This document shows, piece after piece, positions 22,286 to 45,802 of a stretch of DNA of 64,000 nt. Within the stretch, counting starts at the first letter, position 1; each line of letters begins with the position of its first letter. Position numbers and translations under genes: made by a program. The notes under the pieces are model-generated. The model did no database searches and was not told the DNA's origin. It saw only the letters and a list, made by a program, of their open reading frames with translations. Location of the stretch: positions 62,001 to 126,000 of the forward strand of contig NZ_SOCA01000010.1 in assembly GCF_004364345.1 (NCBI RefSeq), written 5' to 3'. The DNA comes from Prosthecobacter fusiformis. Lineage in GTDB: Bacteria; Verrucomicrobiota; Verrucomicrobiia; Verrucomicrobiales; Verrucomicrobiaceae.

Positions 22286-25200
22286 ATGCTCCGTTCGTTC
22301 GCTGCCTTACCAACCCTGTTTGTTTCACTGGTCGCCAGTTCCATGCTTCATGGAGCAGATCACCCGCCAGTCCTTGATCTTTCTTCGGATACCTCGCGCC
22401 ATGTCATCATTGCCCAGGGAACGCCTGAGGTTTATCAGGGGCACCCCACCACTTTGCTCCTCCCTGATGGCAAGACCATGTATGTGGTGTGGACCTACGG
22501 TCATGGTGGCGGCTGCGGGCCCATGAAGCGCAGTGATGACGGCGGCAAGACTTGGAGTGATCTGCTGCCCGTTCCGGAAAACTGGAAGGACACCCGCAAT
22601 TGCCCGGCTCTCTATCGTCTTACGGATCCGCAGGGCGTTTCACGCCTGTTCGTCTTTGCCGGGCAGGGGCCTGGCGGGACTCGCCAACCGGACAATGGCA
22701 CCATGAACCAGTCTTATTCCATGGATGATGGAAAAACCTGGACCCCCATGAAAAGCAATGACCTGAACTGTGTCATGCCTTTTTGCACCATCATGCCCGT
22801 GGATGGTGGCAAGCGCCTCATTGGCCTTTCTAACATTCGCCGCCCTGGTGAAACCAAAGACACGAAGTCAAACATCATCACACAAAGTGAATCCACCGAT
22901 GGCGGCCTCACCTGGAGTCCCTGGCGCGTGCTTGTGGACCTAGGGGATCTGAAACCTTGCGAGCCAGAAGTCGTGCGTTCTCCGGATGGCAAACAGCTCC
23001 TCTGCCTCATCCGCGAAAACATCCGCAGTCACGACAGCCACTACATCATCAGCAATGATGAGGGCCGCAACTGGTCGGATGTGAAATCTCTGCCTCCTGG
23101 CCTGCATGGCGACCGCCACAAGGCCCAGTATGCCCCCGATGGTCGCCTGGTGGTCACCTTTCGCGACATGGGGGCCAAGAGTCCTACACGCAATCACTTC
23201 GTCGCCTGGGTGGGCCGTTACGAGGACATTCAGTCAGGCAAAGACGGCGAATATAAGATCAAGCTGCTCCATAGCTATGCTCGCAGTGACTGCGGGTATC
23301 CAGGACTCGAAGTGCTGCCGGATGGCACCTTCGTGGCCACCACCTATGTCAAATATCGCGAAGGCCCTGAAAAGCACTCCGTCGTAAGCACACGTTTCTT
23401 GCTGAAGGAGACGGATGCCATGGAAAAAAAGGTGATCGAAGTCCCCGCAGGAAAAACTTCCAAAGTGGCTGGTATTCTCCTGGATGACGATAAGGCGAAA
23501 TACACGGGCAAGTGGATCAATGGCGGAGACAAACGGGACCTTCTGGTGGGCGGTGGTTATCGCACCACGAATGGCGATGGTGCCGCTACATTCACTCCTG
23601 ACATTCCTGCTGCGGGTCGCTATGAACTGCGCCTGCTTTATGTGCCTTCTGGCAATCGGAGTGATGCTGTGTCAGTGACCATCCACAGTGCAGAAGGTAA
23701 AAAAACAGTAACGCAGAATCAACGCGAGAATTGCTTGGAGGAAAGCATTCCCCGCTCACTGGGAGTGTATGAATTTGCCAAAGGCAAGGCGGGTTCTGTG
23801 CAGATCGCAGCCAAAGCCAAGGCCGGTTTTGTGGTCGTGGATGGCCTGCAGATCGTGCCTGAGGCGGATGCCAAAGTGGAACGCAACACACGTGCGGACG
23901 CCGGTTTCCCGGTCATGATCGAGACACCGAAACCCACGGTCAAAATACCGGCCCCTATGACCCTAAAGTCAGCTGCCAAAGCTGCGGATGTGGATGGCAA
24001 AAGCTATGATTTGGTCGTCATCGGCGGCACACCTGGAGGTATTGCCACGGCCGTGCGTGCCGCTCGCGAAGGACTCAAAGTGCTTTTGGTAAACCACACT
24101 CAGCATTTGGGTGGTTTCATCACCAGTGGGGCTGGTGGCTGGGAGGCTCCTTATGACGGCCTGCGCGCCCCATTGTATGGGGAAATGCTCACGGGCGCGG
24201 CCTCCTATTACAGTAAGACATACGGTGAAAATTCGCCCCAGCATCTGGCCTCCATGCCGGACGCCAAAAGCAGGGCGCACATTGACCGGCCAAAAGTCGA
24301 GCCGCGCATCGCTGAGATGCTTTTTAACCAGATGGTGGAAAAAGAAAAATCACTGACTGTCTTGTTAGGTCACACCGTCAAGGATGCCGTACGGGATGGC
24401 GCATTGCTAAAGAGCGTGACCCTCCAGCCAATGCACGGCAAAGGCAGCGTGAAGGTCAGTGCCACTCTCTTTGCCGATGGCATGTATGAAGGGGATCTCA
24501 TCGCAGCCGCAGGTGTAAAATCACAGATCGGGCGTGAGGCTCGCAGCCAGTATAATGAACCTCATGCCGGAGTCATCTATACCGCAGAGCGCAAGAAGGA
24601 ACCGGGCCAGCGTGGCTTTCCCAAGGATGCGGACGAAGGCCGTTTGAACATCCGTTACAACAGCCACGCGACAGCAGAAATCATTGAAGGACCGCAGAGC
24701 GGTGAGGCGGATGGCTCCGTCATGGCCTACAATTATCGCCTCATTCTCACCCGTGACCCGGCCAATAAGATCATGGTGGAAAAGCATCCCAAGTATGATG
24801 TGGAGATGGCCAAAATGGCTGGCGGCAGCGGATTTGTGCCGAATCTGCCTAACAATAAAGTCGCCTGGAATGGCGGGCGTCTCATCGGTCCCCAGAATGA
24901 GTATCCCGGCGGCGACTGGCCCACTCGTGAAAAAATCAGCCGACTGTACATGGACACCATGCGCATGCGCCTTTGGTATTTTCAAAATGACCCAGCCGTC
25001 CCGGAGAAAGAACGCAAATACTGGGAAGGTTGGGGACTGGCTGCTGATGAATTCCCGGATAACAACCATGAGCCTTATGAGATTTACGTCCGCGAAGCGC
25101 GCCGCTTGGTAGGCCGCGCTGTTTTTACCGAGCATGACAATAAGGTCCCCGCAGGCATCGGACGCACACCCATTAATACGGACAGCATTGCCATCACTGA

Positions 25201-25816
25201 TTGGCCGGTGGACTCCGTCGCCTGCTTGAAACGCAAGGTTCCTGGTGGACATGAGGATGGCATTTTTTTCCTGGGAGAGGAAAGCCGCCCAGCTCAGGTC
25301 CCTTACCGCTGCCTGCTGGCCCAGGATTTGGATAACCTACTGGTGTCTGTGGCCATTTCAGCTTCGCATGTCGGCTGGGGATCCATCCGCTTAGAACCGG
25401 TGTGGATGCAGATGGGAGAGTCCGCCGGTTTTGCCGCCGCCTTGGCGATTAAAAACAAGACCACACCAGGAAAGCTTAATCCGGATTTGCTCATCCGTGC
25501 CCTGGTTAAAAACAGGGTCATGATCAGCTTCTTCAATGATGTCGATGTAACCTCCGATGATCCTCGTGTACCTGCTGCGCAATACTTCGGCAGCAAAGGT
25601 TTCTTCAGCACTTATGACGCGCGATTGGATGAGCCGCTCAGCGAGAGTGAAAAGGCGGTCTGGATGGACGGCTTTGAGCAACTCCAAAAAGGCACTTTGG
25701 ATCCGATGCAACTTGCCAAAGCTGTGCACGCCTCAAGCACAAACGCGACTCCTCAAACGAAACAAACACGTGGAGCGGCTTTGCTGGCTATGTGGAACGA
25801 ACTGGAGGCTCAATAA
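22286..25816 (+). CDS. Secreted fusion: sialidase-type propeller + golvesin/xanthan-lyase-like beta domain + FAD oxidoreductase
   Basis: This 1176-residue protein has three parts. After a signal peptide (residues 1-24) comes a sialidase/neuraminidase-like propeller with Asp boxes at residues 83-90 (SDDGGKTW), 145-152 (SMDDGKTW), 203-210 (STDGGLTW) and 256-263 (SNDEGRNW). Residues of about 385-530 form a beta domain like the golvesin/xanthan-lyase-associated module (GRYELRLLYVPSGNRSDAVSVT, then FVVVDGLQIVPE). From residue 574 a complete PF12831-type FAD oxidoreductase follows with GGTPGG at 580-585, YEGDL and the C-terminal FFNDVDVTSDDPR signature. It opens the packed thirteen-gene block. The next gene starts directly after its stop. 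The substrate is unknown. Confidence 0.85.
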   Translation: MLRSFAALPTLFVSLVASSMLHGADHPPVLDLSSDTSRHVIIAQGTPEVYQGHPTTLLLPDGKTMYVVWTYGHGGGCGPMKRSDDGGKTWSDLLPVPENWKDTRNCPALYRLTDPQGVSRLFVFAGQGPGGTRQPDNGTMNQSYSMDDGKTWTPMKSNDLNCVMPFCTIMPVDGGKRLIGLSNIRRPGETKDTKSNIITQSESTDGGLTWSPWRVLVDLGDLKPCEPEVVRSPDGKQLLCLIRENIRSHDSHYIISNDEGRNWSDVKSLPPGLHGDRHKAQYAPDGRLVVTFRDMGAKSPTRNHFVAWVGRYEDIQSGKDGEYKIKLLHSYARSDCGYPGLEVLPDGTFVATTYVKYREGPEKHSVVSTRFLLKETDAMEKKVIEVPAGKTSKVAGILLDDDKAKYTGKWINGGDKRDLLVGGGYRTTNGDGAATFTPDIPAAGRYELRLLYVPSGNRSDAVSVTIHSAEGKKTVTQNQRENCLEESIPRSLGVYEFAKGKAGSVQIAAKAKAGFVVVDGLQIVPEADAKVERNTRADAGFPVMIETPKPTVKIPAPMTLKSAAKAADVDGKSYDLVVIGGTPGGIATAVRAAREGLKVLLVNHTQHLGGFITSGAGGWEAPYDGLRAPLYGEMLTGAASYYSKTYGENSPQHLASMPDAKSRAHIDRPKVEPRIAEMLFNQMVEKEKSLTVLLGHTVKDAVRDGALLKSVTLQPMHGKGSVKVSATLFADGMYEGDLIAAAGVKSQIGREARSQYNEPHAGVIYTAERKKEPGQRGFPKDADEGRLNIRYNSHATAEIIEGPQSGEADGSVMAYNYRLILTRDPANKIMVEKHPKYDVEMAKMAGGSGFVPNLPNNKVAWNGGRLIGPQNEYPGGDWPTREKISRLYMDTMRMRLWYFQNDPAVPEKERKYWEGWGLAADEFPDNNHEPYEIYVREARRLVGRAVFTEHDNKVPAGIGRTPINTDSIAITDWPVDSVACLKRKVPGGHEDGIFFLGEESRPAQVPYRCLLAQDLDNLLVSVAISASHVGWGSIRLEPVWMQMGESAGFAAALAIKNKTTPGKLNPDLLIRALVKNRVMISFFNDVDVTSDDPRVPAAQYFGSKGFFSTYDARLDEPLSESEKAVWMDGFEQLQKGTLDPMQLAKAVHASSTNATPQTKQTRGAALLAMWNELEAQ

Positions 25817-27298
25817 ATGATGAAGCAAGCTATTCTCACTATCCTTTTCGGTGCCACACTTTGTTCGGCATCTGCCGCAGGCCCGACGGACTCTAAAGCC
25901 CCTACGGAGGGTGCCACCGGTTTTGAATTGCGGGTTCCGGCTCCCGGACCGGATTCCATTGCTGATGCCATACTTCAGGAGGCTATCGACAAAGTCGCCT
26001 CGGCTGGCGGTGGCGTGGTGCTGCTTGGGGCCGGAGATTTTATGCTCTCACGCCATGACGATGACGAAACAGTCGTGATTAAAAGTAACGTGACTTTGCG
26101 CGGCCAGGGCTACGCAACGCACATCTACCTTGATCCAAAAACTCCGCCCAATGACCTGCGCTACTTCCCGATGAGAATCGGTAGTGCAAAGGTGCCTGCT
26201 CACAATGTGGTCATTGAGCATCTGCGCTACACGGGCAATGACAATGCCATCGGCGGCGGCTCTATCATGGGCTTCAATGCCCGTTTAGATGAACCTGAAT
26301 CGCTCTTGCTTTCTTGCGACAACATTACCGTCCGCAATTGCTGGATCTATGATGCCAAACAGGCCGCTGGCTGCACCAAGGCTGCGACTGCGATGTACCT
26401 GGTCAAGCATGTCATCAGCCCGGAGGAAGCGAAGATCGCTGCCGGTGAAACTGAAAACATTCGCACGGGTTATTTCGATGCCAACCGCATGGACTCCCAG
26501 TTCAAAAATTGGCAGGTTTATAACAACTACATCGAGACCTGCGGCAACAAAGGAATCGAGCTCGCGGAATGCAATGGCGGTCTCATCGCAGATAACCACA
26601 TCGTTAATGTCGTTGATGGACCTCAAGTGATCTTTGGCAGCCGCAATGTGCAGATCCGTGACAACATCGTGTATTTCACCAAGAGCGGCATCAATATCAC
26701 CGAGGGCTCGCATCACATCCGCGTCAGCGGCAATCATGTGGAGCCTATGCCGGAGGTTGCTGAGAAAGCGCTTGTGCCCTGCCTGATCTTCCGGACGGAA
26801 CCGCTGGCCCTTCATTCAAAGATCAGCGATGTGGTGGTCACTGGAAACACCTTCCGCAAGCACAATTGCACAATGCGTTTTGTGACCCGTCCAGAGGCTC
26901 TCTCTTGCGTGTATGAGGGCATCGTACTCACGGGCAATGTATTCGACGGAGATGTCCAGTTTTTCGACGAACGCAATCCAGCCCGGACCACTATCCGGGA
27001 CATTCATTTTTCAGACAATGTCTGTGAAGGCATGCTGCTCTCGGATCCCCAGGAAGCGATGGCTTCGAGCCATATCGTGGTTCGAGGTAACATGCTTCGC
27101 CGACCTGGAACCATGATCTTGAACGCAAGCAACTGGATTTGGACTGGCAACACCCATGTGAACGGATCACTCGAAATCGCCGCAGGTGCCAAGGGGAACA
27201 TCGTCCGCGACAATGTCACCTCTGCTCCCATCACTGACAAGGGCGCGGAAAATGTACTGTCGGGCAATGTTGTACTGAAAAAAGCCGACGCTCCATGA
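25817..27298 (+). CDS. Secreted right-handed parallel beta-helix protein (copy 1)
   Basis: The signal peptide covers residues 1-21 (…ATLCSASAA). The first third has the N-terminal pectin-lyase-fold pattern: GGGVVLLGAGDF, VIKSNVTLRGQG, HNVVIEHLRY. Repeating coils follow, each with N-V/I-x-I-R-D-N or I-x-V-S-G-N ladders (NVQIRDNIVYFTKSGINI, HHIRVSGNHVEP). This fold is used by polysaccharide lyases, glycosidases and epimerases. No lyase-specific catalytic set can be assigned. The ATG abuts the stop of the previous gene and the end overlaps the next gene by 4 bp. It is a close paralogue of the gene at 30708. It differs by a longer loop after GCTKA (38 residues against 12). Confidence 0.85.
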   Translation: MMKQAILTILFGATLCSASAAGPTDSKAPTEGATGFELRVPAPGPDSIADAILQEAIDKVASAGGGVVLLGAGDFMLSRHDDDETVVIKSNVTLRGQGYATHIYLDPKTPPNDLRYFPMRIGSAKVPAHNVVIEHLRYTGNDNAIGGGSIMGFNARLDEPESLLLSCDNITVRNCWIYDAKQAAGCTKAATAMYLVKHVISPEEAKIAAGETENIRTGYFDANRMDSQFKNWQVYNNYIETCGNKGIELAECNGGLIADNHIVNVVDGPQVIFGSRNVQIRDNIVYFTKSGINITEGSHHIRVSGNHVEPMPEVAEKALVPCLIFRTEPLALHSKISDVVVTGNTFRKHNCTMRFVTRPEALSCVYEGIVLTGNVFDGDVQFFDERNPARTTIRDIHFSDNVCEGMLLSDPQEAMASSHIVVRGNMLRRPGTMILNASNWIWTGNTHVNGSLEIAAGAKGNIVRDNVTSAPITDKGAENVLSGNVVLKKADAP

Positions 27299-28761
27299 GA
27301 AATTGGCCATACTTTCTCTTGGTGCTGCTGACCTGTCTTCCTTCGTTGGCCGGACAGGCTTCGGCGCAGCCATTGCGTCATCTTTTTCTAGATCCCGCTT
27401 TCCTCGTGGAAACGTCTGGAAACGTCACGTTGCGTGTGAATCCGCCGGAACGGCGCGAAACGGTCATCCGTGCGGACAAGCCTTGGGAACAACTGATGAT
27501 CAGTTTCTTCCTCACTGTGCGCGAAGAGGAAGGAAAGCTGCGGATGTGGTACATCTGTCGCGACAAGGAGAACCTGCCTAATCTTGCCTATGCTGAATCC
27601 ACCGACGGGGTCACGTGGATAAAACCCAACCTGGGGCTGGTCACTTATCACGGCTCCACTGACAATAATCTGGTGGGAGTCCCCGGCGTAGAAGGTGTCG
27701 TTTTTCAAGATCCCAAAGCGCGCACCCCGGAGGAAAAGTATGTCTATGTCACACGCCTGAAAAGGTCGTCCATCTATCGCTACTTTTCGCCGGATGGATT
27801 GCGCTGGCAGCGGGATCCCCAGGCTTTTCTTGGCATTTCCAGCGATACACAGAATGTGATCTTCTGGGATGAAAATATCGGTCGTTATGTGATCTACCTG
27901 CGCGGCATGGGAAAGAAATCTGGCGTAGAAGGACTGTGGAGGACGGTCACCCGCGTAACCGCTGATGACCTCACCAAGCCGCTACTGCTGGATTTTCCAA
28001 AGGACAAAGAAGCACTTAAACAGAAGGGGAATCTACCGATGGTTCTACAAGCCGATGGGGCCGATCCCGAGGAAAGCGATGTCTATAATATCTCGGCCCA
28101 GCCCTACCCCCTTGATCCCCGTTGGTATGTGGGATTTCCATCCTTCTTCCAGCGCCAGACCAATCCGGCCAACCGAGACGCGACCAACTATGGTCGTGTG
28201 GAGGTCCAGTTTGTCGGCAGCCGTGATGGTATTCGCTGGGAGCGCTATGACCGCCAGTCCTATGCCCGTCCCGGCCTGGTCGGTTCCGAAAACGCCAACG
28301 TCATTTTCATGGGGACGGGCATGGTTGTCCGCGGAAATGAAATCTGGCAATACGGGACCGGGTATCACTCGCATCACGGCGATGTCGAGGCCAGGAAGAA
28401 AAAGACCGACGGCGTCATCCAACGTTATGTGCAGCGTGTGGATGGTTTTGTCTCACTGGACTTCGATGCCGAAGCGGGCCGCGCTATCACTAAGCCAGTG
28501 AAGGTGGAAGGATCGCAGCTTGCACTGAATCTCGATGTGGCCGTGCTGGGTCATTTACGCGTTGGCTTATCTGACGCCGAAGGCAAGGCAATGGAAGGTT
28601 TCAGCCCTGAAGATTGCCAGATTCTGCGCACCAATTCAACCCGTGCACTCGTCACATGGAATGGCGCTGCCGACCTGACTGCATTAAACGGTCGTGATGT
28701 TCGGCTGACCTTCAAGGGTGCACGCGCCAAGCTCTACAGCTTCTATTTCACTCAAGAATGA
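27295..28761 (+). CDS. Secreted glycosidase-like beta-propeller protein (copy 1)
   Basis: The 488-residue protein has a signal peptide to about residue 25 (…SLAGQASAQ). It shows repeated propeller blades with S-x-D-G-x-x-W elements: AESTDGVTWIKPNL, FSPDGLRWQRDP, GSRDGIRWERYD. These are the hallmark of GH32/GH43-like or sialidase-like five-bladed propellers common in PVC genomes. The C-terminal 110 residues (RVDGFVSLDFDAEAGRA, then the closing LTFKGARAKLYSFYF) form a beta-sandwich shared with its two paralogues. Catalytic acids cannot be assigned safely. It overlaps both neighbours by ATGA, which indicates translational coupling in a module with the beta-helix protein and the FAD oxidoreductase. 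Confidence 0.8.
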   Translation: MRNWPYFLLVLLTCLPSLAGQASAQPLRHLFLDPAFLVETSGNVTLRVNPPERRETVIRADKPWEQLMISFFLTVREEEGKLRMWYICRDKENLPNLAYAESTDGVTWIKPNLGLVTYHGSTDNNLVGVPGVEGVVFQDPKARTPEEKYVYVTRLKRSSIYRYFSPDGLRWQRDPQAFLGISSDTQNVIFWDENIGRYVIYLRGMGKKSGVEGLWRTVTRVTADDLTKPLLLDFPKDKEALKQKGNLPMVLQADGADPEESDVYNISAQPYPLDPRWYVGFPSFFQRQTNPANRDATNYGRVEVQFVGSRDGIRWERYDRQSYARPGLVGSENANVIFMGTGMVVRGNEIWQYGTGYHSHHGDVEARKKKTDGVIQRYVQRVDGFVSLDFDAEAGRAITKPVKVEGSQLALNLDVAVLGHLRVGLSDAEGKAMEGFSPEDCQILRTNSTRALVTWNGAADLTALNGRDVRLTFKGARAKLYSFYFTQE

Positions 28762-30704
28762 GTGCCAGTTTCATGAAGCCGCCCCTCATCCTCATTCTCG
28801 CTTTTATTGTCAGCATCGCCTCTGCTGCTGAACCGGTGCGCACTTATGACCTCGTGGTCTTTGGCGGCACCGCTCCAGGCATTGTAGCGGCGGTCAGGGC
28901 AGCCCGAGAGGGGCTGAATGTCGCGCTCGTTTCTCGCAGCAAGCATCTGGGTGGCAGCCTGCCTTCACTCGGCGCGGTGGAGACGCACTATGCGGGAAAT
29001 CGAGCCCCCTTGCTTGATGAGTTTGTGGCTAAAGTGAAGGCCCATTACCGAGCCAAGGATGGCGAGGATTCAGATAACTACCGTGCATGTGCTGGTGGAC
29101 GCATGATCACTTATGAACCTCAAGTGGCGGAGGCGATCCTTGAGCGAATGCTTGCCGCAGAATCGCGCATCAAGGTATATCGCGAGTTTACTCCCACCAA
29201 AGTGGAGAAAGAGGGCAAACTCATCACCGCCGTGCAGTTTGTCGCCATGAATAAAAGCGAGACGCTAAGATTGGCTGCCCGTTCATTCATGGAAGCTGGT
29301 TACGAAGGTGACCTCATGGCCGCTGCCGGGGTGAAATATCGCGTCGGGCGCGAATCCCGCTCTGAATATAATGAGCCACGTGCGGGGCGGGTCTTCACTC
29401 ATTGGCTCACCGGTCAGCATCCTCTCGCCGCAGTGGAGGGACGTCTGAATCTGGTCATCTCTGGAGCCACGACTTCTGATCCTCTGCCAGGGAGCACGGG
29501 CGAGGGAGACGATAACATCCAATCCTACAGCTACAGGCTCTGCATCACCGATGATCCCGCGAACCGCCGCCTTCTCGATTCTCCTCCTGTCGGCTATGAC
29601 CGCGCTCGCTTTGCGCCTATCCTGCTGAGCGTCGAAGAAAAAGCGCGCCTGTCACTGCCGTTTCATCATCGTTTCCAGATCTATCCCCTCCAGGAGATGG
29701 TGGAGCGTGACCACATTTTCCATGGGCACGCTTTGCCTAACCGAAAGCGCAGTTGGAATGCTACCAATCTCACAGGTGGCGGCAAAGCCTATCCTGAAGC
29801 GGATGAAGCGACGCGCCGACTGATCGAAAAGCAACATCGCGACCATGCGCTTGGCCTCATGTGGTTTTTGCAAAACGATCCTGGCATGCCCGATGCACTG
29901 CGGTCCAAGGCCCGTGAGTGGGGGCTGGCTAAGGACGAGTTTGCCGATACGGACAACATTCCTTCACAACTCTATGTGCGGGAAGCGCGGCGTCTGGTGG
30001 GCCGTGCTGTTTTCACAGAAAACGATGCACTGCTATCCCCAGGCCTTGGGCGCGCACCGGTTCATACCGACTCCATCGGCATCACCGAATTTTCTCTCGA
30101 CTCATTGGCCTGCACCACCGAGCGCCTCGGCGATTCGCTTTGTGATGGGCAGCTTTTTCAAATGGAAGTCTCCCGTCCCGGCCAAGTGCCGTGGAACTCG
30201 CTCCTCCCTCAGGAATATGAAAATCTGGTCGTCGTCACCACGCTATCAGCCACTCACGTTGGCTGGGGAGCTATCCGTCTCCCGCCCACCTGGATGCATC
30301 TCGCAGAATCGGCTGCCTGGGCCATTGTTCTCGCCAATCAGGCAGACATAGCGCCAGCCCAGGTGAGCGTGGATCAACTCCAACAGCGGCTCGCCATCAG
30401 CCATGTCATGATCAGCTTCTTCAATGATGTGGATGTGGCCTCGGACGATCCTCGGGTGCCGGCTGCGCAATACTTCGGAACGAAGGGCTTTTTCAGCGAT
30501 TACGATGGGCGTTTGGATGACATGCTTACCGAGGGTGAAAAAGCTGCTTGGGACGGCGGGTTTGAGCAGCTCAAAAAAGGAATACTAAAATCCATACAAC
30601 TCGCCAAAGCCGTTCACGTCGCCGCAGCGAAACAAACTCCCAAAACAAAACAAACACGCGGCGCGGCGCTGCTGGAGATGTGGAATGCCCTGAATCCGCA
30701 GTAA
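28758..30704 (+). CDS. Exported FAD-dependent oxidoreductase (PF12831 type, module 1)
   Basis: The 648-residue protein has a Sec-type signal (residues 6-23, IASAAEP) without twin arginines. The dinucleotide-binding strand is YDLVVFGGTAPG (GGTAPG at 36-41). Family signatures follow in order: SKHLGG, FMEAGYEGDLMAAAGVKYRVGRESRSEYNEPRAG, YVREARRLVGRAVFTEND, DSIGITEFSLDS, SRPGQVPWNSLLP, TLSATHVGWGAIRLPPTWMHL and the C-terminal FFNDVDVASDDPRVPAAQYFG. Such proteins are often misannotated as xanthan lyase. The predicted reaction is FAD-dependent oxidation of an alcohol or sugar position, inferred only from the fold. Translation may start at 28758 (ATGA overlap) or at the ATG at 28773. Confidence 0.88.
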   Translation: MSASFMKPPLILILAFIVSIASAAEPVRTYDLVVFGGTAPGIVAAVRAAREGLNVALVSRSKHLGGSLPSLGAVETHYAGNRAPLLDEFVAKVKAHYRAKDGEDSDNYRACAGGRMITYEPQVAEAILERMLAAESRIKVYREFTPTKVEKEGKLITAVQFVAMNKSETLRLAARSFMEAGYEGDLMAAAGVKYRVGRESRSEYNEPRAGRVFTHWLTGQHPLAAVEGRLNLVISGATTSDPLPGSTGEGDDNIQSYSYRLCITDDPANRRLLDSPPVGYDRARFAPILLSVEEKARLSLPFHHRFQIYPLQEMVERDHIFHGHALPNRKRSWNATNLTGGGKAYPEADEATRRLIEKQHRDHALGLMWFLQNDPGMPDALRSKAREWGLAKDEFADTDNIPSQLYVREARRLVGRAVFTENDALLSPGLGRAPVHTDSIGITEFSLDSLACTTERLGDSLCDGQLFQMEVSRPGQVPWNSLLPQEYENLVVVTTLSATHVGWGAIRLPPTWMHLAESAAWAIVLANQADIAPAQVSVDQLQQRLAISHVMISFFNDVDVASDDPRVPAAQYFGTKGFFSDYDGRLDDMLTEGEKAAWDGGFEQLKKGILKSIQLAKAVHVAAAKQTPKTKQTRGAALLEMWNALNPQ

Positions 30705-30707
30705 GTT

Positions 30708-32126
30708 ATGAAAAAAGCCATCGTCCTTACCTCTTTATTCGCCTTCATTGGCAGTCCCATTGGAGCCGTCGGTCCGACCGAATCTGACCCAATCTTGGCT
30801 CAACCTGCCAGTGGGTTTGAAGTGCGGGTCTCAGCACCCGGACCCGATGTCAGCGCCGACGATGTGCTTCAAGCTGCCATCGACAAGGTCTCCACAAGAG
30901 GCGGCGGGGTGGTGCTGCTCGGGGCAGGGGACTTTAAGCTGTCCCGCAAGCAGGGGGAGCAAACCGTTGTCATCAAAAGCAACGTGACCCTGCGCGGCCA
31001 GGGGCACGCGACGCACATTTATCTTGATCCAAAGACGCCCTCTAATCCTGAGCGTTATTATCCCGTGCGTATCGGCACGGACGCGGTGCCAGCACACAAT
31101 GTCGTCATCGAAAATCTGCGTTACACCGGCAATGACAAGGCCATCGGCGGCGGCTCCATCATGGGGTTCAACGCGCGCCTGGATGCCCCTGAATCGCTCC
31201 TGCTGTCCTGCGACAACATCACCGTCCGCCACTGCTGGATCTATGATGCGAAACAGGCGGTCGGCTGCACCAAGGCGACTGCCTTTTACATGCAGGCTGA
31301 CCGGATCGTCGCCCAGTTCAAGAACTGGCAGGTGCATCACAACTTCATCGATACCTGTGGCAACAAGGCGATTGAACTGGGCGAATGCAATGGCGGACTC
31401 ATTGCGGACAATCACATCATCAATACTGTGGACGGGCCGCAGGTGATCTTCGGCACCCGTAATGTGCAGATTCGCGATAACGTCGTCTTTTTTACCCGGA
31501 CCGGTATCAACGTCAGCGAAGGCTCCCATCACATCCGCGTCAGCGGCAACCACGTCGAGCCGATGCCGGGCCGCGATCATGCCCAGATGGCGACCTGCCT
31601 CCTCTTGCGCACCGAACCGAAGCGGCTTCACACGAGAATCTCGGACGTTGGGGTGACTGGAAACATCTTCCGCAACCAGAGCACTCCTTCTAAATGTACG
31701 GTCTCTTTCCTGACGAATATTGACGCCCTTTCTTGTGTCTATGAAGGCCTCACTTTCACCAGCAATGTGTTCGATGGTGATGTCCAGTTATTTGATAAGC
31801 GCATGCCCGACAAGACAACGATCAAAGACATCGTCTTCGCTGACAACATCTGTGAAGGGGATCTTCTTTCCGAATCACAAGGGAAGATGATGTCCAGCCA
31901 TGTGATGGTCCGGGCCAATGTGCTGCGCAAGGCTGGAGTATGCACTCTCAATGCGAGCCAGTGGATCTGGACAGGCAATACGCATGTGAACGGCACGCTT
32001 AAAATCGCTCCTGGTGCCAAGGATAACATCATCCGTGACAATGTGACCGCCAGCCCGATCACGGATCAAGACGATGGAAATAGCCTCGTCGGCAATGTGG
32101 TGATGAAGAAGACTGTTACCCCATGA
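30708..32126 (+). CDS. Secreted right-handed parallel beta-helix protein (copy 2)
   Basis: This 472-residue paralogue of the gene at 25817 has the same signal-peptide type (FAFIGSPIGAVGPTES) and fold. It shares long near-identical segments with copy 1, such as VVIKSNVTLRGQG and AIGGGSIMGFNARLD. After GCTKA the loop is only 12 residues long before QFKNWQVHHN, against 38 in copy 1. The coil region NVQIRDNVVFFTRTGINVSEG is conserved. The gene starts 3 bp after the FAD oxidoreductase stop and overlaps the next gene by 4 bp, repeating the spacing pattern of module 1. The function is probably the same or a related lyase, epimerase or binding activity. Confidence 0.85.
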   Translation: MKKAIVLTSLFAFIGSPIGAVGPTESDPILAQPASGFEVRVSAPGPDVSADDVLQAAIDKVSTRGGGVVLLGAGDFKLSRKQGEQTVVIKSNVTLRGQGHATHIYLDPKTPSNPERYYPVRIGTDAVPAHNVVIENLRYTGNDKAIGGGSIMGFNARLDAPESLLLSCDNITVRHCWIYDAKQAVGCTKATAFYMQADRIVAQFKNWQVHHNFIDTCGNKAIELGECNGGLIADNHIINTVDGPQVIFGTRNVQIRDNVVFFTRTGINVSEGSHHIRVSGNHVEPMPGRDHAQMATCLLLRTEPKRLHTRISDVGVTGNIFRNQSTPSKCTVSFLTNIDALSCVYEGLTFTSNVFDGDVQLFDKRMPDKTTIKDIVFADNICEGDLLSESQGKMMSSHVMVRANVLRKAGVCTLNASQWIWTGNTHVNGTLKIAPGAKDNIIRDNVTASPITDQDDGNSLVGNVVMKKTVTP

Positions 32127-38967: not shown

Positions 38968-40539
38968 ATGACTCCTTCCCGCCGAAGCTTTCTCAAGCTT
39001 TCTTCAAGTGCGCTCGTGACCAGCGCTTTGCCTGCCATTGCTCAAAGTGACGAGAATGCCCCGCGCTTTCATCCCACAGTAGCGTCAACTAACTACAAGT
39101 GTATCTTCAATCACGAACTGTTGGTCGTCGCGGGAAAAAAGGACAACAACCCGGAATACATCGGCTCATTCATTGACAAGTTGAAGGACACCGATGTGGA
39201 TGCAGTCATGTGCTGCCCGACCATGTGGCGCACCAATTTGTATCCTTCGGAGATTGATCCTCAGTGGAAAAAATACACGCCAGGCCAGTCATCCAAGTTC
39301 CCGTCCTTCGACAGGATGATGGCCTACATCCACGGCGGTGGTGATCCGGTGAAGGAGACTCTGGAAGCCTGTCGGCGTAACAAAAAGGATTTTTTCATCT
39401 GCTATCGGATGAATGATCAGCACTACGTGGCTGATCTCGCATGGCCAACTCACAATGCCATCTGGCGGGAGCATCCCGAATACTGGCTAGGCGATTCTGA
39501 GATCCCTCCAGCCAAGGGCGGAGACAATGTCCGGCTCTTCAACTACATGGTCCCAGAAGTGCGTGAATACTTCTTCTCCATTGTGAAAGAGCTTTGCACA
39601 AACTACGATGTGGATGGCGTCGAACTCGATTTCCAACGTTTTCCCAAGTTCTTCCGCAGCGCTGATCTGGAAGAAGGACGCGGCGTAATGACCGCATTCG
39701 TAAAGCGAATCAAGACCATGATGAACGATATCGGTCGCGAGCGTGGAAAATCCCTCAAGCTAAGCATCCGCATTCCGGAAACATTGGCCAAATGCGAGGC
39801 CGCCGGGCTGGACATCCCCGAGTGGGACAAACAGCATTTGGTGGAGATGATCAATATTTCCTCGTTCTATGTCCACACCATCGAACTGGGCATCGAAGGA
39901 TTCCGTGCTGCCACCAGCTATGGCAAGCTTTACGGGGAAATGAACTACCTCACCTTCCAGGAGTCAGGCCAAGTCAAAGGTTCCGGCCGCCGATATACGA
40001 CCTTCGAAACTTATCGAGCTTCGGCGCTGAATCTCTTCACCCGAGGTGTGGATGGATTGAGCCTCTTTAATTACGATTACGTTCCCTCCGACAAGCGGTT
40101 GGCGATGGCGGAAGGCCTCAAGCAGATCACGGATCTCGATTTCCTCAGGCAGGCGTCGAAAAATTATGTGATCTCTCCCGGCTTCGGCACTTTCCCCGCG
40201 AAGAACGACAAAGAAATCGACCTCATCATCCCAGATGACACCACTCAGGTCCACTTTGATCGAGCCATCCTGCGCATAGAGACCAAGCTGGATTGCACCA
40301 AACTGCAAATAGGTGTCTGGCTGAATGGCGAAGCCTTGGAGCCCCTGGCTCATGAGGGAACCGAACTCTTCGTCCCGGTGTCGCAAAACTCCGCCTATCC
40401 CACGCCCCAGGTATTGAAGTTTTATACCGTTCCTCTGGCCCGCATCATCGCAGGAAAAAACACCATCAAGATCAGCAACCTTGATCGGAAAAAAGGCAAC
40501 TGTGATCTTCGCTCGATGGAGCTCGCCCTTTATCGTTAA
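38968..40539 (+). CDS. Tat-exported TIM-barrel-like protein, putative glycoside hydrolase
   Basis: The N-terminus SRRSFLK (residues 4-10) is an almost canonical Tat motif followed by SSSALVTSALPAIAQ. The body looks like an (alpha/beta)8 barrel: FFICYRMNDQHY, PEVREYFFSIVKELCTNYDVDGVELDFQRFPKFF (keys: DGVELDFQR), LKLSIRIPET, FYVHTIELGIEG, GVDGLSLFNYDY. The strand motif DGVELDFQR resembles the catalytic-acid-bearing strand of GHL-type and GH18/GH-like barrels. A beta-sandwich of about 110 residues follows. No GH family can be assigned from sequence alone. Tat export of an apparently cofactor-free barrel is unusual unless it binds a metal or travels in complex. Neighbours are 30 and 18 bp away. 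Confidence 0.75.
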   Translation: MTPSRRSFLKLSSSALVTSALPAIAQSDENAPRFHPTVASTNYKCIFNHELLVVAGKKDNNPEYIGSFIDKLKDTDVDAVMCCPTMWRTNLYPSEIDPQWKKYTPGQSSKFPSFDRMMAYIHGGGDPVKETLEACRRNKKDFFICYRMNDQHYVADLAWPTHNAIWREHPEYWLGDSEIPPAKGGDNVRLFNYMVPEVREYFFSIVKELCTNYDVDGVELDFQRFPKFFRSADLEEGRGVMTAFVKRIKTMMNDIGRERGKSLKLSIRIPETLAKCEAAGLDIPEWDKQHLVEMINISSFYVHTIELGIEGFRAATSYGKLYGEMNYLTFQESGQVKGSGRRYTTFETYRASALNLFTRGVDGLSLFNYDYVPSDKRLAMAEGLKQITDLDFLRQASKNYVISPGFGTFPAKNDKEIDLIIPDDTTQVHFDRAILRIETKLDCTKLQIGVWLNGEALEPLAHEGTELFVPVSQNSAYPTPQVLKFYTVPLARIIAGKNTIKISNLDRKKGNCDLRSMELALYR

Positions 40540-40557: not shown

Positions 40558-42492
40558 ATGACCATTCATCTGCGCCTTGCCTCAATCTTCCTGTTTTCAT
40601 GCGCGGCCTTGCTATCCTTGCCTGCCGCCACGCCCGCGCCGCAGCGAAAACCTCTTCAGGTGGAGCCTGTGCGTGCTGCGGAAGCGGGGCAGGTGAATGG
40701 CCAAGCGTACGATCTCATCGTCATCGGAGGAACTCCCGGCGGCATTGCCTGCGCCGTTCGTGCTGCGCGTGAGGGATTATCCGTTCTCATCGTTCAGCAC
40801 AACCGTCACATCGGCGGCATGATCACCAATGGGCTTATGCAATGGGATGCACTATACGCAGGCCACCGCGCCCCCATTTTCAATGAAGTCGCTGGCATGA
40901 TCGGCGACTATTACTTGAAGACCTACGGCGAGGATTCGCCTCAGTATAAAACCGCGCGTTTCACCCAGACTCATTATCCGATGAGCCTGTTTGAGTCCTC
41001 AGTGGCAGAGCACCTGTTTAACAAACTGGTCTCGGCTGAAAAGAACATCACCACACTGCTTTCTCATTACCCTGTGGACTCCTCTCGGGATGCAGCCATT
41101 CTCACAGGCCTCACCCTTCGTAAATATGGCACATCAGAAGACATCCAGGTTAAAGGCAAAGTCTTCGCAGATGCCACCTATGAAGGGGATCTCGCCGCCC
41201 TGGTTAAGGTGCCTTATCGTATCGGTCGTGAAGGCCGTGACGAATACGGTGAACCGCACGCAGGGAAAGTATTCACCAACATCTCTTCCGAAAAAGGTCC
41301 CAAAGAAGCGTTGGATGGCACTCTCAATATTCACCCTTACGGCCACGTCCAGGGGACCATTGATCCCAATAGCCCCTTCACCGCAGATGGAGCCGTACAG
41401 GCCTACAATTATCGTTTCTGCCTGACCAAGGAAGAGGGCAACCGCCTGCTTCCCGAAAAGCCCCCGGGTTACAATCGCGAAGAGTTTGTGAACTACTATC
41501 GCAAGGGCCTTGGCGGCGGTCGTCTCAATGGCAAAGGCACGTTTAATAACCCCATCCTCCCCGGAGAAAATCACGCCTATCCCGATGCCTCCTGGCCGGA
41601 GCGTGAGAAGATCATCGAGCGCCACAAGAACTTCGCGTTAGGCCTCATGTATTTCCTTCAAAATGACGAATCCCTGTCCGAGGCCAAGCGTGCCGGTTAT
41701 CGCCAGTCAGGTTTGCCTCTCGATGAATATCCAGACAACGGCCACATCCCCTATGAAATGTATGTCCGTGAAGGCCGTCGCATCGTTGGGCGTTACGTGT
41801 TCAAGGAACAGGACAACCGCCTCGCCGCAGCTTATGGCCGCTCTCCTGTAATGACCGATAGCATCGCCATCACCGACTGGTCCATGGATTCCCACGACTG
41901 CACCTGGGACCGTAGCCCTGGCTATGCATATGATGGCAAGCTCATCCTGACAGAGGAATCCCGACCTGCGCAGATCCCCTGGCGCAGCCTGCTGCCACAG
42001 GGCGTGGACAATCTCATCGTCCCTGTCTGTCTCAGCGCCACCCATGTCGCCTGGGGCGCAGTCCGCCTGGAGCCTGTGTGGATGCAGCTCGGTGAATCCG
42101 CCGGTTTTGCCGCCGCACTTTCCGTCAAAAAGAACCAAGCACCAGCTTTCCTAGATCCCGCACTGCTGATCCAGTCACTCGTTAAAAACCGCATGATGAT
42201 CACGTTCCTCAATGACGTGGACGTGGCCTCCAATGATCCTCAGGTGATGGCCGCGCAATACTTCGGTAGCAAAGGTTTCTTCAGCGATTACAACGCGGGG
42301 TTGGACCTACCCTTATCCACCCACCTCAAAACCGTTTGGCAGGGTGGATTTGATCAACTTCAAAACGGCACGCTTGATGTGGAAAAGCTCGCTATTGCCG
42401 TTCATCAAGCTTCTGCCGAAACATCGGAGGATACGGGAATGAAACGTGGCGAGTTTCTGGTTCAGTTGTGGTCAAAACTCACACAGCCCTGA
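40558..42492 (+). CDS. Exported FAD-dependent oxidoreductase (PF12831 type)
   Basis: The 644-residue protein has a Sec-type signal (residues 1-25, SLPAATPA) and a short Pro-rich linker. YDLIVIGGTPGG lies at residues 51-62. Signatures are NRHIGGMITNGLMQWDALYAG, DATYEGDLAALVKVPYRIGREGRDEYGEPHAG, NGHIPYEMYVREGRRIVGRYVF, DSIAITDWSMDSHDC, SRPAQIPWRSLLPQGVDNLIVPVC and FLNDVDVASNDPQ. The pre-domain residues 32-50 resemble the linker before the FAD domain of the 1176-residue fusion at 22286, which suggests a close relation between those two. The predicted role is periplasmic or surface oxidation of a carbohydrate-type substrate; the electron acceptor is unknown. Confidence 0.88.
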   Translation: MTIHLRLASIFLFSCAALLSLPAATPAPQRKPLQVEPVRAAEAGQVNGQAYDLIVIGGTPGGIACAVRAAREGLSVLIVQHNRHIGGMITNGLMQWDALYAGHRAPIFNEVAGMIGDYYLKTYGEDSPQYKTARFTQTHYPMSLFESSVAEHLFNKLVSAEKNITTLLSHYPVDSSRDAAILTGLTLRKYGTSEDIQVKGKVFADATYEGDLAALVKVPYRIGREGRDEYGEPHAGKVFTNISSEKGPKEALDGTLNIHPYGHVQGTIDPNSPFTADGAVQAYNYRFCLTKEEGNRLLPEKPPGYNREEFVNYYRKGLGGGRLNGKGTFNNPILPGENHAYPDASWPEREKIIERHKNFALGLMYFLQNDESLSEAKRAGYRQSGLPLDEYPDNGHIPYEMYVREGRRIVGRYVFKEQDNRLAAAYGRSPVMTDSIAITDWSMDSHDCTWDRSPGYAYDGKLILTEESRPAQIPWRSLLPQGVDNLIVPVCLSATHVAWGAVRLEPVWMQLGESAGFAAALSVKKNQAPAFLDPALLIQSLVKNRMMITFLNDVDVASNDPQVMAAQYFGSKGFFSDYNAGLDLPLSTHLKTVWQGGFDQLQNGTLDVEKLAIAVHQASAETSEDTGMKRGEFLVQLWSKLTQP

Positions 42493-42533
42493 CCCCCACA
42501 CCACAACCATTGTGTAAAAGGCATTGCGTATTT

Positions 42534-43823
42534 ATGAAATTGTTCACCGTTCTTTTGACAGGTTGCTTATTGTCATCTGTCTTGTTAGCCCAGCCTGGCG
42601 TCAGCCATGCCGACGGTCTCTTTCTTGAGCTACCGTTGCAGCCTGGGGAAGGGGATCGCTTCCAGCTCGCCGATTTTTCTTTTTGGCTCGCGGACCCTTC
42701 TCAGCCTGTTCGTGGTGTCATCATTCACCAGCACGGATGCACCAATGCCTCACCGGCCAAGCATCCGCCTGTCACCCATGATTTCCACTGGCGTGCCTTG
42801 GCCCGCAAGCATCATTTCGCGCTCCTGTCACCGCAATATCAAGTCGCTGGCAAGTGCGATGAATGGAACAATCCCGATAGCGGCTCCGAACGTGCGCTCC
42901 TGACAGCTCTGAGCGATTTCGCCACACGTTCCAAGCGCCCGGAGCTCTCCGATGTTCCCTGGGTCCTGTGGGGGCATTCCGGTGGCTCCAGTTGGTCCGC
43001 GCAGATGATCACCCGTCATCCACAGCGCGTGCTTGCTGCCTCCTTTCGCGGTGGATGTCACAAGCAGTTTGGTGATCCAGCCTTTCGCGCCAGTTTTGCA
43101 CCACTGGCCAAGGATATTCCCATGCTTTTTGTTTGGGGAAAACGGGAGACTGCCCGCACTTCCAGTCACTATGTTTCCTGGGAGCCCATGAATGCCATGC
43201 GTCAGGACCTTCGCTCCCTCGGTGGCCACGTTGCACGGGTCATTGATCCACGCTCTGAGCACGGTTGTGATGACTCCCGTCTGCTCGTCATCCCGTTCTT
43301 TGATGCGGTGCTCAGCGCCCGTTTGTCGGGTCAGACAATGCCCGGTGCGCTGGTGGACATGGCCTCCATAGAAACTTTACCGGTCACTCCTGAAAACACC
43401 CGGAATCCTGAGCTGGGCTGGCTGCCCAATCGTGAGATTGCCGCCTTGTGGCAAGAGTTTTCCAAAACGGGCACGCTTAGCCCCTCCACCCCTCCTCATA
43501 TCGCCCCCACCCTCACCGCCACCCGCTTGGCAGACGGCACTGTCAGCCTGAACTGGGGTATTGTTCCAGAACTCGCAGGCGGCCTACGCGCCATCCGTCT
43601 CAATCGAGATGGCAAGCTTTTGAAGGAACTCGGTGTCAAGCCCGATGCCTATATTGCCACCAGCCGCGATGCTCCGCCTGAAGGCCTGCGTGCACCTTCC
43701 TTTATCGATGCCTCCCCCGCTTCAGGGACAGATCCTGTTTACACCCTCACCTTTCTGGATGCTGCGGGTCATGAGTCACCACCTAGCCCGCCTGCTAAAG
43801 TCATGCCGGCTTCCCACCAGTGA
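42534..43823 (+). CDS. Secreted alpha/beta hydrolase with C-terminal beta-sandwich
   Basis: The ATG at 42534 gives 429 residues starting MKLFTVLLTGCLLSSVLLAQ, a clear signal peptide. The longer frame from 42468 overlaps the upstream gene and is rejected. The hydrolase domain has the oxyanion-type segment IIHQHGCTNASP, nucleophile elbow WGHSGGSSW (G-H-S-G-G), and late motifs MLFVWGKRETAR and DPRSEHGCDDS supplying the histidine. The last 100 residues (TRLADGTVSLNWG through TLTFLDAAGHESPPS) look like a fibronectin type III-like domain. It is probably a carbohydrate esterase or feruloyl-type esterase (inference). It ends 23 bp before the start chosen for the next oxidoreductase. Confidence 0.82.
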   Translation: MKLFTVLLTGCLLSSVLLAQPGVSHADGLFLELPLQPGEGDRFQLADFSFWLADPSQPVRGVIIHQHGCTNASPAKHPPVTHDFHWRALARKHHFALLSPQYQVAGKCDEWNNPDSGSERALLTALSDFATRSKRPELSDVPWVLWGHSGGSSWSAQMITRHPQRVLAASFRGGCHKQFGDPAFRASFAPLAKDIPMLFVWGKRETARTSSHYVSWEPMNAMRQDLRSLGGHVARVIDPRSEHGCDDSRLLVIPFFDAVLSARLSGQTMPGALVDMASIETLPVTPENTRNPELGWLPNREIAALWQEFSKTGTLSPSTPPHIAPTLTATRLADGTVSLNWGIVPELAGGLRAIRLNRDGKLLKELGVKPDAYIATSRDAPPEGLRAPSFIDASPASGTDPVYTLTFLDAAGHESPPSPPAKVMPASHQ

Positions 43824-43846
43824 CCAGCCTCCCTCTTCGCTTCATT

Positions 43847-45802
43847 ATGAAACATCTTTTGGTTAGCCTGTTTTTAAATATGACGCTCTGGTTTTTACCG
43901 GCGTCCACCATCCATGCAGCGGAGCCGCCTGCCGCCACTTATGATCTCATCGTCATTGAGGCCACCCCCGGCGGTATAGCCACTGCCGTCCGTGCTGCGC
44001 GTGAAGGCTTGAACGTCCTCCTGGTCAATCGCACCCAGCATCTGGGCGGCATCGTCGCCAACGGTCTCGGTGTTTGGGACACATTATATGAAGGCAGGCG
44101 CTCCCCCATTTATGATGAAGTGCGCCGCTCCATCATTGAGCACTATCGTCTGACCTACGGTGAAGGTTCATCTCAGCACATCGCCGCGCTTCCAGGTAAA
44201 AGTGGGCACACCAATGGGCGTTTCGAGCCAAGCATCGCAGAAAAGTTTCTGACGGAGCTTGTGGTTAGGGAAAAGAACATCACCCTCCTGAAAGGTTACG
44301 TCCCCGCATCGGTGATGCGTGAAGACCGCATGATCCAGGGCATCACGTTCCAGCAATTTCAAGGAAGAGAAACTCGCACCTTCGTTGCGCGATTTTTTGC
44401 CGACTGCACTTACGAAGGAGATCTGTTGCCCCTTACCGGAGTGACTTACCGGGTCGGACGCGAATCTCGGGCTGAATTTAACGAACACCACGCCGGTAAA
44501 ATCTATCTCCGCCCTGTCAAAGACGCCCCCACACCCGAAGCTGCCTCAATGGCTGCCATGCATGACCGGTTAAATCTGCGCAAGTTTCCCGGTTTCCAGG
44601 AGATCGTCTCGCCCGCAAGCACGGGGGAAGGGGACCTCAATGTCCAGGCGTTTAACTACCGCACCATCCTCACTTCAAATCCTTCCAATCGTCTTCCTGT
44701 GGAAAAACCGGCAGACTACGATCCCGAATTCCTCAGCACTCTGGAGTTTGGTTCGATTGTCTCACCGTTGCCTAACAAGAAGATCGGCTGGAACCGCCCT
44801 CAACTCGTCGGCCCTCATCAGGCCTATGTAGAAGGGGACTGGCCCACACGTCTGAAAGTGATGGAGCAACACTGGCAGGCCACCATGGGCCTTCTTTACT
44901 ACCTGCAAAACGATCCCGCCGTGCCGGAGGAGCGCCGCCGTTTTTTCAGCACCTATGGCTTGGCCAAAGACGAATTTGCGGACAATGCCCACCGTCCACA
45001 TGAGTTCTATGTCCGTGAAGCCCGTCGTCTAACGGGTCGTCACATCATCAGCCAGCACGATTTCACCCCTGTCAAAGGAACCTCCCGCACTCCCATCCAA
45101 CATGACAGCATTGCTTTCGCCGATTGGTACATGGACGCCCATGCCTGCACGCTAGGTAAATCCCAGGGCAGCCTTGATGAAGGTAAAATGATGCTTCACG
45201 CCGAAACATTCCCGGCCCAGATCCCTTACCGTGCACTTCTTTCCCCAGACCTGGATAATCTCCTCGTCCCCGTTTGTCTCAGCAGTACACACGTCGCCTG
45301 GGGAGCCATCCGTCTTGAACCCACCTGGATGCAGGTGGGAGAATCCGCCGGTTACGCCTGTGCGCTCGCCAAAAACACCGGGACCACTCCCGCATCCCTG
45401 GATTCTGCGCGACTCGTCCGCACACTTTCTGCGAATCACTCCATGATCACCTTTTTTAATGATGTGGATATCTCCCTGGATGATCCCTCCATCGTCGCCG
45501 CGCAGGTTTTCTCCACACAGGGTTTTTTTCACGATTACGATGCCCGGCTGGACCATCCATTGAAAACAGCCACGGCTAAAGTCTGGCTACAGACTTTACA
45601 ATCTCGTGTCTCAGGTCCTGATGCAGTGCAAAAGACCGCAGCGGCCGTTGCCAGCGCCGAGGCCGGATATTCGTCGGCGATCACACCCGAAGCTTGGCAT
45701 GAAATGCTGGTCCTTTTGGGTCACAAAACGGCCCCAGTCCCAGCAGGCTCTGAAATCACCCGTGGCAGGGCACTTCGGGACTTAAACAGCGCAGGACAAT
45801 GA
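43847..45802 (+). CDS. Exported FAD-dependent oxidoreductase with altered dinucleotide motif
   Basis: From the ATG at 43847 the protein has 651 residues with a Sec-type signal to about residue 24 (STIHAAEP). A GTG start at 43820 would add nine residues before the signal. It is a close relative of the gene at 33611 (HLGGIVANGLGVWDTLYEGRRSPIYDEV, keys GLGVWD; PGKSGHTNGRFEP; DSIAFADWYMDAHAC). The FAD motif reads YDLIVIEATPGG: Glu38-Ala39 replace the Gly-Gly present in four of the five other oxidoreductases at that place. The C-terminal signature is also changed (AAQVFSTQGFF instead of AAQYFGxKGFF) and followed by about 70 extra residues. It may bind FAD poorly or differently. It is the last gene of the locus. 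Confidence 0.85.
   Translation: MKHLLVSLFLNMTLWFLPASTIHAAEPPAATYDLIVIEATPGGIATAVRAAREGLNVLLVNRTQHLGGIVANGLGVWDTLYEGRRSPIYDEVRRSIIEHYRLTYGEGSSQHIAALPGKSGHTNGRFEPSIAEKFLTELVVREKNITLLKGYVPASVMREDRMIQGITFQQFQGRETRTFVARFFADCTYEGDLLPLTGVTYRVGRESRAEFNEHHAGKIYLRPVKDAPTPEAASMAAMHDRLNLRKFPGFQEIVSPASTGEGDLNVQAFNYRTILTSNPSNRLPVEKPADYDPEFLSTLEFGSIVSPLPNKKIGWNRPQLVGPHQAYVEGDWPTRLKVMEQHWQATMGLLYYLQNDPAVPEERRRFFSTYGLAKDEFADNAHRPHEFYVREARRLTGRHIISQHDFTPVKGTSRTPIQHDSIAFADWYMDAHACTLGKSQGSLDEGKMMLHAETFPAQIPYRALLSPDLDNLLVPVCLSSTHVAWGAIRLEPTWMQVGESAGYACALAKNTGTTPASLDSARLVRTLSANHSMITFFNDVDISLDDPSIVAAQVFSTQGFFHDYDARLDHPLKTATAKVWLQTLQSRVSGPDAVQKTAAAVASAEAGYSSAITPEAWHEMLVLLGHKTAPVPAGSEITRGRALRDLNSAGQ

Follow-up and report, generated by a model that had tools for sequence, protein, structure and literature searches.

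The gene for EnvSia156 (ORF12p), an exosialidase of glycoside hydrolase family 156 (GH156), lies with GH29 and GH20 genes in a fosmid-borne saccharide cluster that is said, in the accessible part of PMC6254351, not to conform to a polysaccharide utilization locus (PUL); the word 'oxidoreductase' appears 0 times in the main text of that paper. In the system of the lactose 3-dehydrogenase LacABC, sugar oxidation takes place beyond the cytoplasm, beside a hydrolase of the DUF1080 family (PF06439) that is itself exported, according to the available portion of PMC9007349. The same family has been tied to xanthan breakdown in an accessible section of PMC5673643, in whose main text 'FAD' (flavin adenine dinucleotide) appears 0 times. 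The present analysis concerns a run of fifteen genes (g01 to g15, 18954-45802, all on the + strand) in a stretch of 64,000 nucleotides from Prosthecobacter fusiformis (RefSeq assembly GCF_004364345.1, contig NZ_SOCA01000010.1, positions 62,001 to 126,000), hereafter the window. Six of these genes encode PF12831 flavoproteins, and PF12831, as a term in the open literature searched, was found solely in a survey of the Brucella flavoproteome, as far as the available part of that source goes (PMC9045290). Among the matches listed, no title or abstract opening describes such a locus; subscription journals and bioRxiv were mostly outside the coverage, and priority is not claimed.

With respect to these precedents, the locus is a variant on PUL-like clusters, distinguished by its multiple flavoproteins. 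It has a homologue of EnvSia156 that keeps the carboxylate triad and the acid histidine, but flavoproteins, propellers and beta-helices take the place that GH29 and GH20 have in the fosmid cluster. The proposed oxidation of sugars outside the cytoplasm beside exported hydrolases recalls LacABC, except that the present locus has no PF06439 gene; LacA, for its part, is a flavoprotein of another family. Co-oriented genes for exported proteins resembling carbohydrate-active enzymes are shared with the PULs of Bacteroidota, as are TonB receptors in Opitutae relatives of the locus, whereas among the fifteen genes no TonB receptor, SusD-like protein or SusC/SusD pair gave a Pfam match. The initial annotation, made from the DNA letters alone, had proposed a dedicated oxidative and hydrolytic pathway for a complex glycan or glycoside. 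The part of this proposal that stands is a dedicated secreted glycan-processing locus, supported by a conserved neighbourhood and by degradative company in relatives, while the oxidation of glycan by the flavoproteins is something that we infer. The locus is read here, at a probability of roughly 0.53, as an exported system for the catabolism of an acidic glycan that carries ulosonic acid and perhaps sulfate, with cleavage and oxidation by flavoenzymes proceeding side by side.

Thirteen of the genes, spanning 22286-45802, had been recognized in the initial annotation, and the open reading frame (ORF) listing and Pfam agree with it on their number, strand and content: six PF12831 flavoproteins (258-302 bits, cut-off 27), three propellers, two beta-helices (Pfam Beta_helix), one TIM barrel (Pfam GHL10) and one alpha/beta hydrolase, with the propeller fold taken from a model of g05 and from homology, and the hydrolase assignment from weak matches far under cut-off. 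The twelve gaps between them are, in order, 0, -4, -4, +3, -4, +12, +77, +30, +30, +18, -25 and -4, and two further genes for exported proteins (18954-20417 and 20414-22201) precede them. Judging from the translations, the internal Met starts at 42534 (g14) and 43847 (g15) are probably to be favoured over the annotated ORF starts, in which case the final two gaps become +41 and +23 and the 25-base overlap vanishes. Since a terminator scan found no + strand terminator-like site between the genes, a single transcript is possible on the basis of the layout. Promoter-like sites show no excess (7 against 10.1 expected and 4 against 6.6 expected in two scans), and terminator-like sites on both strands number 25 against 17.4 expected and 11 against 10.4 expected, again in two scans. 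Within the run, the beta-helices g04 (25817-27298) and g07 (30708-32126) are 64% identical, and the propellers g05 (27295-28761) and g08 (32123-33598) are 62% identical. Duplication of beta-helix, propeller and flavoprotein as one block was considered and rejected, because g06 and g09 sit in different old clades; only the beta-helix and the propeller count as tandem duplicates.

A home-made Kyte-Doolittle scan (not SignalP) found a hydrophobic N-terminal stretch in 15/15 of the proteins, which bears out, at the coarse level of such a scan, the export signals noted initially. The scan is weakly discriminating, in that 10/21 other ORFs of the window also reach 1.35, the lowest value among the fifteen, and several of these ten are membrane or secreted proteins. 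A twin-arginine pattern occurs in g10 (35557) and g12 (38968) only, compared with 1/21 of the other ORFs, and the remaining 13/15 are classed as Sec-like by elimination. If these predictions hold, five of the six flavoproteins would be exported by Sec and would have to take up their flavin outside the cytoplasm.

The six flavoproteins are g03 (22286-25816), g06 (28758-30704), g09 (33611-35479), g10 (35557-37350), g13 (40558-42492) and g15 (43820-45802); g06, g09 and g13 are Sec-like, g10 is divergent and Tat-like (twin-arginine translocation), and the 1176-aa g03 joins a BNR_2 sialidase-like propeller and a golvesin C-terminal domain to PF12831. In all six, the PF12831 match starts at model position 1 and reaches position 413 or beyond of 416. 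The dinucleotide-binding motif is GGTPGG, with the variants GGTAPG in g06, GGSLGG in g10 and EATPGG in g15. The Glu-Ala with which g15 replaces the first Gly pair of most clade members is also present in its orthologue in another genome (L061), and such retention between species argues against simple decay. An R-E-x-R-R motif and the residues Asp412, Asp422, Arg481, Pro484 and Glu491 (g09 numbering) are retained in all six, most of them being common to the wider family; FAD binding and electron transfer are putative functions of the six proteins. A clade-specific change is seen at position 424, where four of the proteins have His, g03 has Val and g06 has Leu.

The source genome encodes 21 full-length PF12831 proteins, six here and 15 elsewhere. 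In a 56-row tree, the domains of g03, g06, g09, g13 and g15 form, with their orthologues, one 22-row clade (100/98) that contains 0/15 of the other full-length proteins of the source genome; most tree rows from other genomes came via loci fetched through a propeller or beta-helix, so that only the source-genome comparison is free of that sampling bias. One stretch (L041) was left out of the alignment, as it held no flavin domain. The divergent g10 falls outside the five-member clade and has orthologues of up to 74% identity in Opitutaceae, the closest in a metagenome-assembled genome (MAG). Separate orthologues are found for each clade member: for g03 in 10 loci of the family, for g06 in two MAGs of the Opitutae, for g09 in L039, for g13 in L040 and L042, and for g15 in G014. 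By their tree positions, the locus is an assembly of several old flavoprotein paralogues.

In the source genome and its relatives, some PF12831 proteins are fused to sialidase-like propellers and others to each other. Two-flavin ORFs of 1215-1269 aa occur in four genomes (L181, L184, L195 and L196), with domains that resemble two of the window's paralogues (58-60% to g09 and 63-70% to g13), and in homologues of g13 the fusion partner is either BNR/golvesin or another flavin domain. As a separate observation, a single 1053-aa ORF (L079:9064-12225) appears to be a natural fusion, since it matches the beta-helix protein as well as a PF12831 flavoprotein, and two very large ORFs (L199:5878-13536, 2552 aa; L200:8787-14966, 2059 aa) end in a BNR-flavoprotein unit.

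The lack of a conserved gene neighbourhood in relatives had been named as grounds for refutation; the neighbourhood is in fact conserved, these genes being found together in other genomes and genera. The beta-helix is present in 28/68 genomes of the family, source genome included. Among 27 stretches around beta-helix matches, a g03 orthologue (69-83%) occurs in 10 and is the next same-strand gene upstream of the beta-helix in 7 of those; a propeller lies directly downstream in 11/27, three of these being just 33-37% identical. In the loci of seven relatives, an orthologue (76-84% identity) of propeller C, g11 (37381-38937), comes after the beta-helix. With less sampling bias, co-location was assessed by three separate genome-wide searches, for the beta-helix, the GH156-like gene and the flavin domain, in the 67 other family genomes, with expectations that assume uniform placement. 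At a threshold of E<=1e-100 to g09, the flavin domain gave 60 matches in 32 genomes (source genome excluded). A GH156-like gene is found no more than 10 kb away from 12 of the 60 (in 10 genomes; 0.29 expected), and the beta-helix is equally close to 12 (in 10 genomes; 0.11 expected); for comparison, 1/60 has atpB at such a distance. The beta-helix itself lies within 15 kb of a GH156-like gene in 10/26 cases (0.19 expected). The flavin list is a lower bound, at most 18 candidates having been scored per genome and g06 of the source genome itself having been missed, and clade membership of the 60 was judged by score. The comparison leaves out GH156-like rows with E-values above 5.7e-11, the second fragments of one beta-helix along with its weakest matches, and every row of the source genome.

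Of twenty additional stretches, most of them picked for g09-like flavoproteins, seven (L184, L185, L187, L193, L195, L196 and L198) encode a protein homologous to the alpha/beta hydrolase. L185 and L187 share the order GH156-like gene, flavoprotein, gene of 528-530 aa (PALP-type in L185, the copy scanned of the two), BNR-flavoprotein, alpha/beta hydrolase and flavoprotein. Outside the family, TonB receptors accompany genes like g06, propeller B and g10 in the Opitutae MAGs L045 and L047, the former also having a GntR/LacI-type sensor and the latter a sulfatase. As judged from these comparisons of sequence and gene order, a multi-flavoprotein glycan locus is real and conserved.

The nature of the substrate is suggested first by g12 (38968-40539), the Tat-like TIM barrel, which matches the GH156 exosialidase EnvSia156 (6rzd) at E=1.9e-34, with 98/312 aligned residues identical (phmmer). 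In EnvSia156, the carboxylate triad Arg129/Arg202/Asn346, the acid His134 and the base Asp14 have been described (PMC6811678, in the part accessible). Nine of the twelve EnvSia156 residues looked up are kept in g12 (Arg129, Asp132, His134, Tyr135, Arg202, Phe203, Arg246, Phe278 and Asn346), with Arg147, His152, Arg224 and Asn368 of g12 pairing with Arg129, His134, Arg202 and Asn346, respectively. The protein is best placed with the GH156 sialidases, its sialidase activity being putative, and this membership points to a ulosonic-acid (sialic-acid-like) unit. The initial annotation was correct in listing a TIM-barrel-like protein and the PF12831 proteins, and had missed this GH156 identity, the BNR_2/golvesin fusion of g03 and the tandem duplication of beta-helix and propeller. 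The source genome also has a second GH156-like gene (C1:1428677-1430230), 81% identical to g12. The surrounding region (L104, C1:1420000-1439999) holds a weak PF06439 match (C1:1426115), a propeller gene that is 24% identical to g11 and, on the opposite strand, the gene for a 1414-aa ThuA-GDSL-DUF7133-cytochrome c protein. A sialic-acid lyase or Nan pathway was sought with the NanA model only and is unsupported.

Further clues come from the company kept in relatives. Among 90 same-strand neighbours of the beta-helix, genes resembling the window's own being left out, 17 encode BNR_2 proteins and 7 sulfatases; the corresponding counts are 2/60 and 1/60 among neighbours of the 15 other PF12831 genes of the source genome (both strands, two per side). 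SASA acetylesterase, RraA-like and HpcH/HpaI aldolase genes are also found near relatives' loci. Together, the GH156 homology and the BNR_2 and sulfatase neighbours in relatives point to an acidic glycan with ulosonic-acid units, sulfation being possible. Sialic-acid-bearing exopolymers, pectic rhamnogalacturonan II and algal walls rich in Kdo (3-deoxy-D-manno-octulosonic acid) are candidate substrates.

Cleavage could be contributed by several other products. The propellers g05, g08 and g11 have no Pfam match at E<=0.01. A model of g05 (predicted local distance difference test 90, 30 rows) is a five-bladed propeller, whose best solved match is the mannoside phosphorylase 9fj8 (Z 24.3, root-mean-square deviation 2.5, 264 residues); it also matches BT_0996 (Z 23.0), which we take to be GH137, as well as GH62 and GH43 enzymes. 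The modelled fold is of the five-bladed GH130/GH43 type, the GH130 label being taken from the title of 5a7v, but identity to the solved structures listed is 7-18% and Pfam assigns no family; a profile match to 4onz has E=3.6e-7 over ~70 positions. Propeller B (g08), assigned by homology to g05, is rare in the phylum (7/288 genomes at E<=1e-50, source genome included). Propeller C (g11), 26-27% identical to A and B, has a weak match of 21 bits (cut-off 450) to a mannobiose phosphorylase model. The BNR_2 domain of g03, a candidate GH33-type sialidase domain, scores 43.5 bits and has weak PDB sialidase matches of about 3e-4. Of the remaining genes, g02 (20414-22201, with a likely start at internal Met 31) combines an exported GDSL/SGNH esterase domain with a prolyl-oligopeptidase-like alpha/beta hydrolase domain; g14 (42468-43823) is an exported alpha/beta hydrolase-like protein, weakly resembling polyhydroxyalkanoate depolymerases and esterases through matches far under cut-off; and g01 (18954-20417) is an exported 487-aa protein with no Pfam or NCBIfam match, whose 46% homologue in a planctomycete MAG (L053) has a propeller gene nearby.

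A pathway can be outlined in which decapping, de-esterification, oxidation and cleavage would take place at the cell surface or in the periplasm. Homology and conserved residues suggest that a sialic-acid-like cap would be removed or bound by g12, possibly assisted by the BNR_2 domain that g03 carries, and the esterases g02 and g14, with sulfatases in relatives, might strip ester groups. The PF12831 paralogues may then oxidize hydroxyls of the exposed sugars in succession, an order of events suggested by the natural proteins with two flavin domains. The propellers of GH130/GH43 fold and the beta-helices could split the remaining or oxidized linkages by hydrolysis or elimination, and the products would enter through transporters encoded outside the locus, as the TonB receptors linked in Opitutae relatives may illustrate. 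Action of several oxidoreductases at different positions, as first proposed, is plausible in view of their distinct old clades, the two-domain fusions and the change at position 424.

It should be noted that a number of observations weigh against the favoured reading. To our knowledge, no activity is known for any PF12831 enzyme of this clade, and the locus encodes no cytochrome or other electron acceptor. The AlphaFold2 model of g09 (pLDDT 86, 20 rows) gives general fold matches, to MnmG, Thi4 and fumarate-reductase-type proteins (Z 15.5-18.3 over 216-316 of 622 residues), and Foldseek TM-scores on the g09 query are just 0.15-0.33; a family missing from the fold-search lists was not counted as excluded. 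PDB sequence searches with the flavoproteins were also tried and returned Rossmann-motif matches in the main. In relatives, 48/60 flavin matches have no detected GH156-like gene inside 10 kb, to which short contigs contribute; the 60 include fragments and pairs from one ORF, and related genomes share history, so the counts cannot be treated as independent. Across the phylum, g09-like proteins are uncommon (9/288 genomes, source included). With regard to the substrate, no sulfatase was found inside the locus, and the NanA model gave three matches in the source genome, none over a cut-off that was exceeded in just 1/14 control genomes. Cys53, Trp164 and Trp279 of EnvSia156 are changed in g12, and Tyr20 stands opposite Leu52. 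The general base Asp14 falls outside the printed phmmer alignment, also with a distant relative as second query, and an alignment of g12 Glu50 with an Asp of five distant relatives (MAFFT) is suggestive only, so that catalysis by g12 is not assured.

A rival reading is that the locus degrades its glycan by hydrolysis, and that the PF12831 proteins leave the glycan unoxidized and act downstream, for example on aglycones, lactones or monosaccharides once these are set free, or in the reduction of unsaturated products of lyases. Consistent with this, enzymes that reduce or dehydrogenate small C=C substrates (fumarate, urocanate and ketosteroids) are among the fold matches of the flavoprotein; beta-helix proteins are often lyases or epimerases, a weak similarity to mannuronan epimerase being seen here (E=0.004); and the hydrolytic parts are present with no need for an oxidation step. 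However, direct fusion of the flavin domain to a sialidase-like propeller and golvesin suggests action on a polymer or at the cell surface, and reductases working outside the cytoplasm would depend on an electron donor that is exported as well, of which the locus has none. This alternative is possible but doubtful. A more novel reading is an oxidative glycan-depolymerization pathway, new for Verrucomicrobiota, in which Sec-exported PF12831 enzymes would oxidize successive positions of a sulfated ulosonic-acid glycan, the propellers and beta-helices would cut the oxidized sugar by elimination, and the GH156-family enzyme would uncap it; this scheme is unlikely.

A clearly smaller chance is given to maturation of the envelope or an exopolysaccharide, with epimerase-like beta-helices and oxidoreductases modifying the cell's own glycan. 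Every product looks exported, mannuronan C5-epimerases are among the beta-helix proteins, and a polysaccharide pyruvyl transferase gene adjoins the locus in one relative (L072). Nevertheless, a Pfam scan of the fifteen (five proteins having no match) yields no gene for a glycosyltransferase, a flippase or export, which makes envelope biosynthesis unlikely. The company in relatives is degradative, with sulfatases and sialidase-like propellers as well as TonB receptors and regulators of the GntR/LacI type that sense ligands, and the patchy occurrence of the beta-helix within the family likewise speaks against a role in the envelope. Equally improbable is a known-type 3-ketoglycoside pathway (periplasmic 3-dehydrogenase plus PF06439 3-keto-hydrolase) with PF12831 in place of the usual dehydrogenase: periplasmic oxidize-then-hydrolyse pathways have been proposed (PMC9007349, in its available part), the source genome has 26 PF06439 matches over cut-off and the weak one near its second GH156-like gene, and in one relative a 1444-aa kinase-PF06439-leucine-rich-repeat ORF (L196:1534-5868) lies directly downstream, on the same strand, of a two-flavin ORF, but none of the over-cut-off matches falls in the 64-kb window, and 0/21 full-length PF12831 genes of the source genome lie less than 13 kb (start to start) from one, the nearest being at 13 kb (relatives' genomes were not searched for PF06439), so that gene order in the source genome leaves this route unsupported, with L196 as the contrary relative.

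Downstream of the run, atpB lies at 46174, and the genes immediately upstream of it differ across the six relatives examined. Two of the six retain parts of the system there: G035 has a g15 orthologue (70%), and G013 has a beta-helix (76%) with a flavoprotein from another clade. Insertion into a clean obgE-atpB site was considered and rejected, given this variation; no obgE match was found in the stretches read upstream of atpB in the six relatives. Elsewhere in the window are a sulfatase (4628-6091) and a PSCyt1-PSCyt2-PSD1 protein of the planctomycete cytochrome type (53494-56493).

PF12831 proteins are numerous in the source genome, yet the term was found in a single paper of the open literature searched. 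Through this locus, one clade of these proteins becomes linked to GH156 chemistry and to natural fusions, which offers concrete candidate substrates and enzyme pairs. If the proposed oxidation step is true, glycans would be degraded by a flavin-driven route as well as by the hydrolase, lyase and 3-keto ones.

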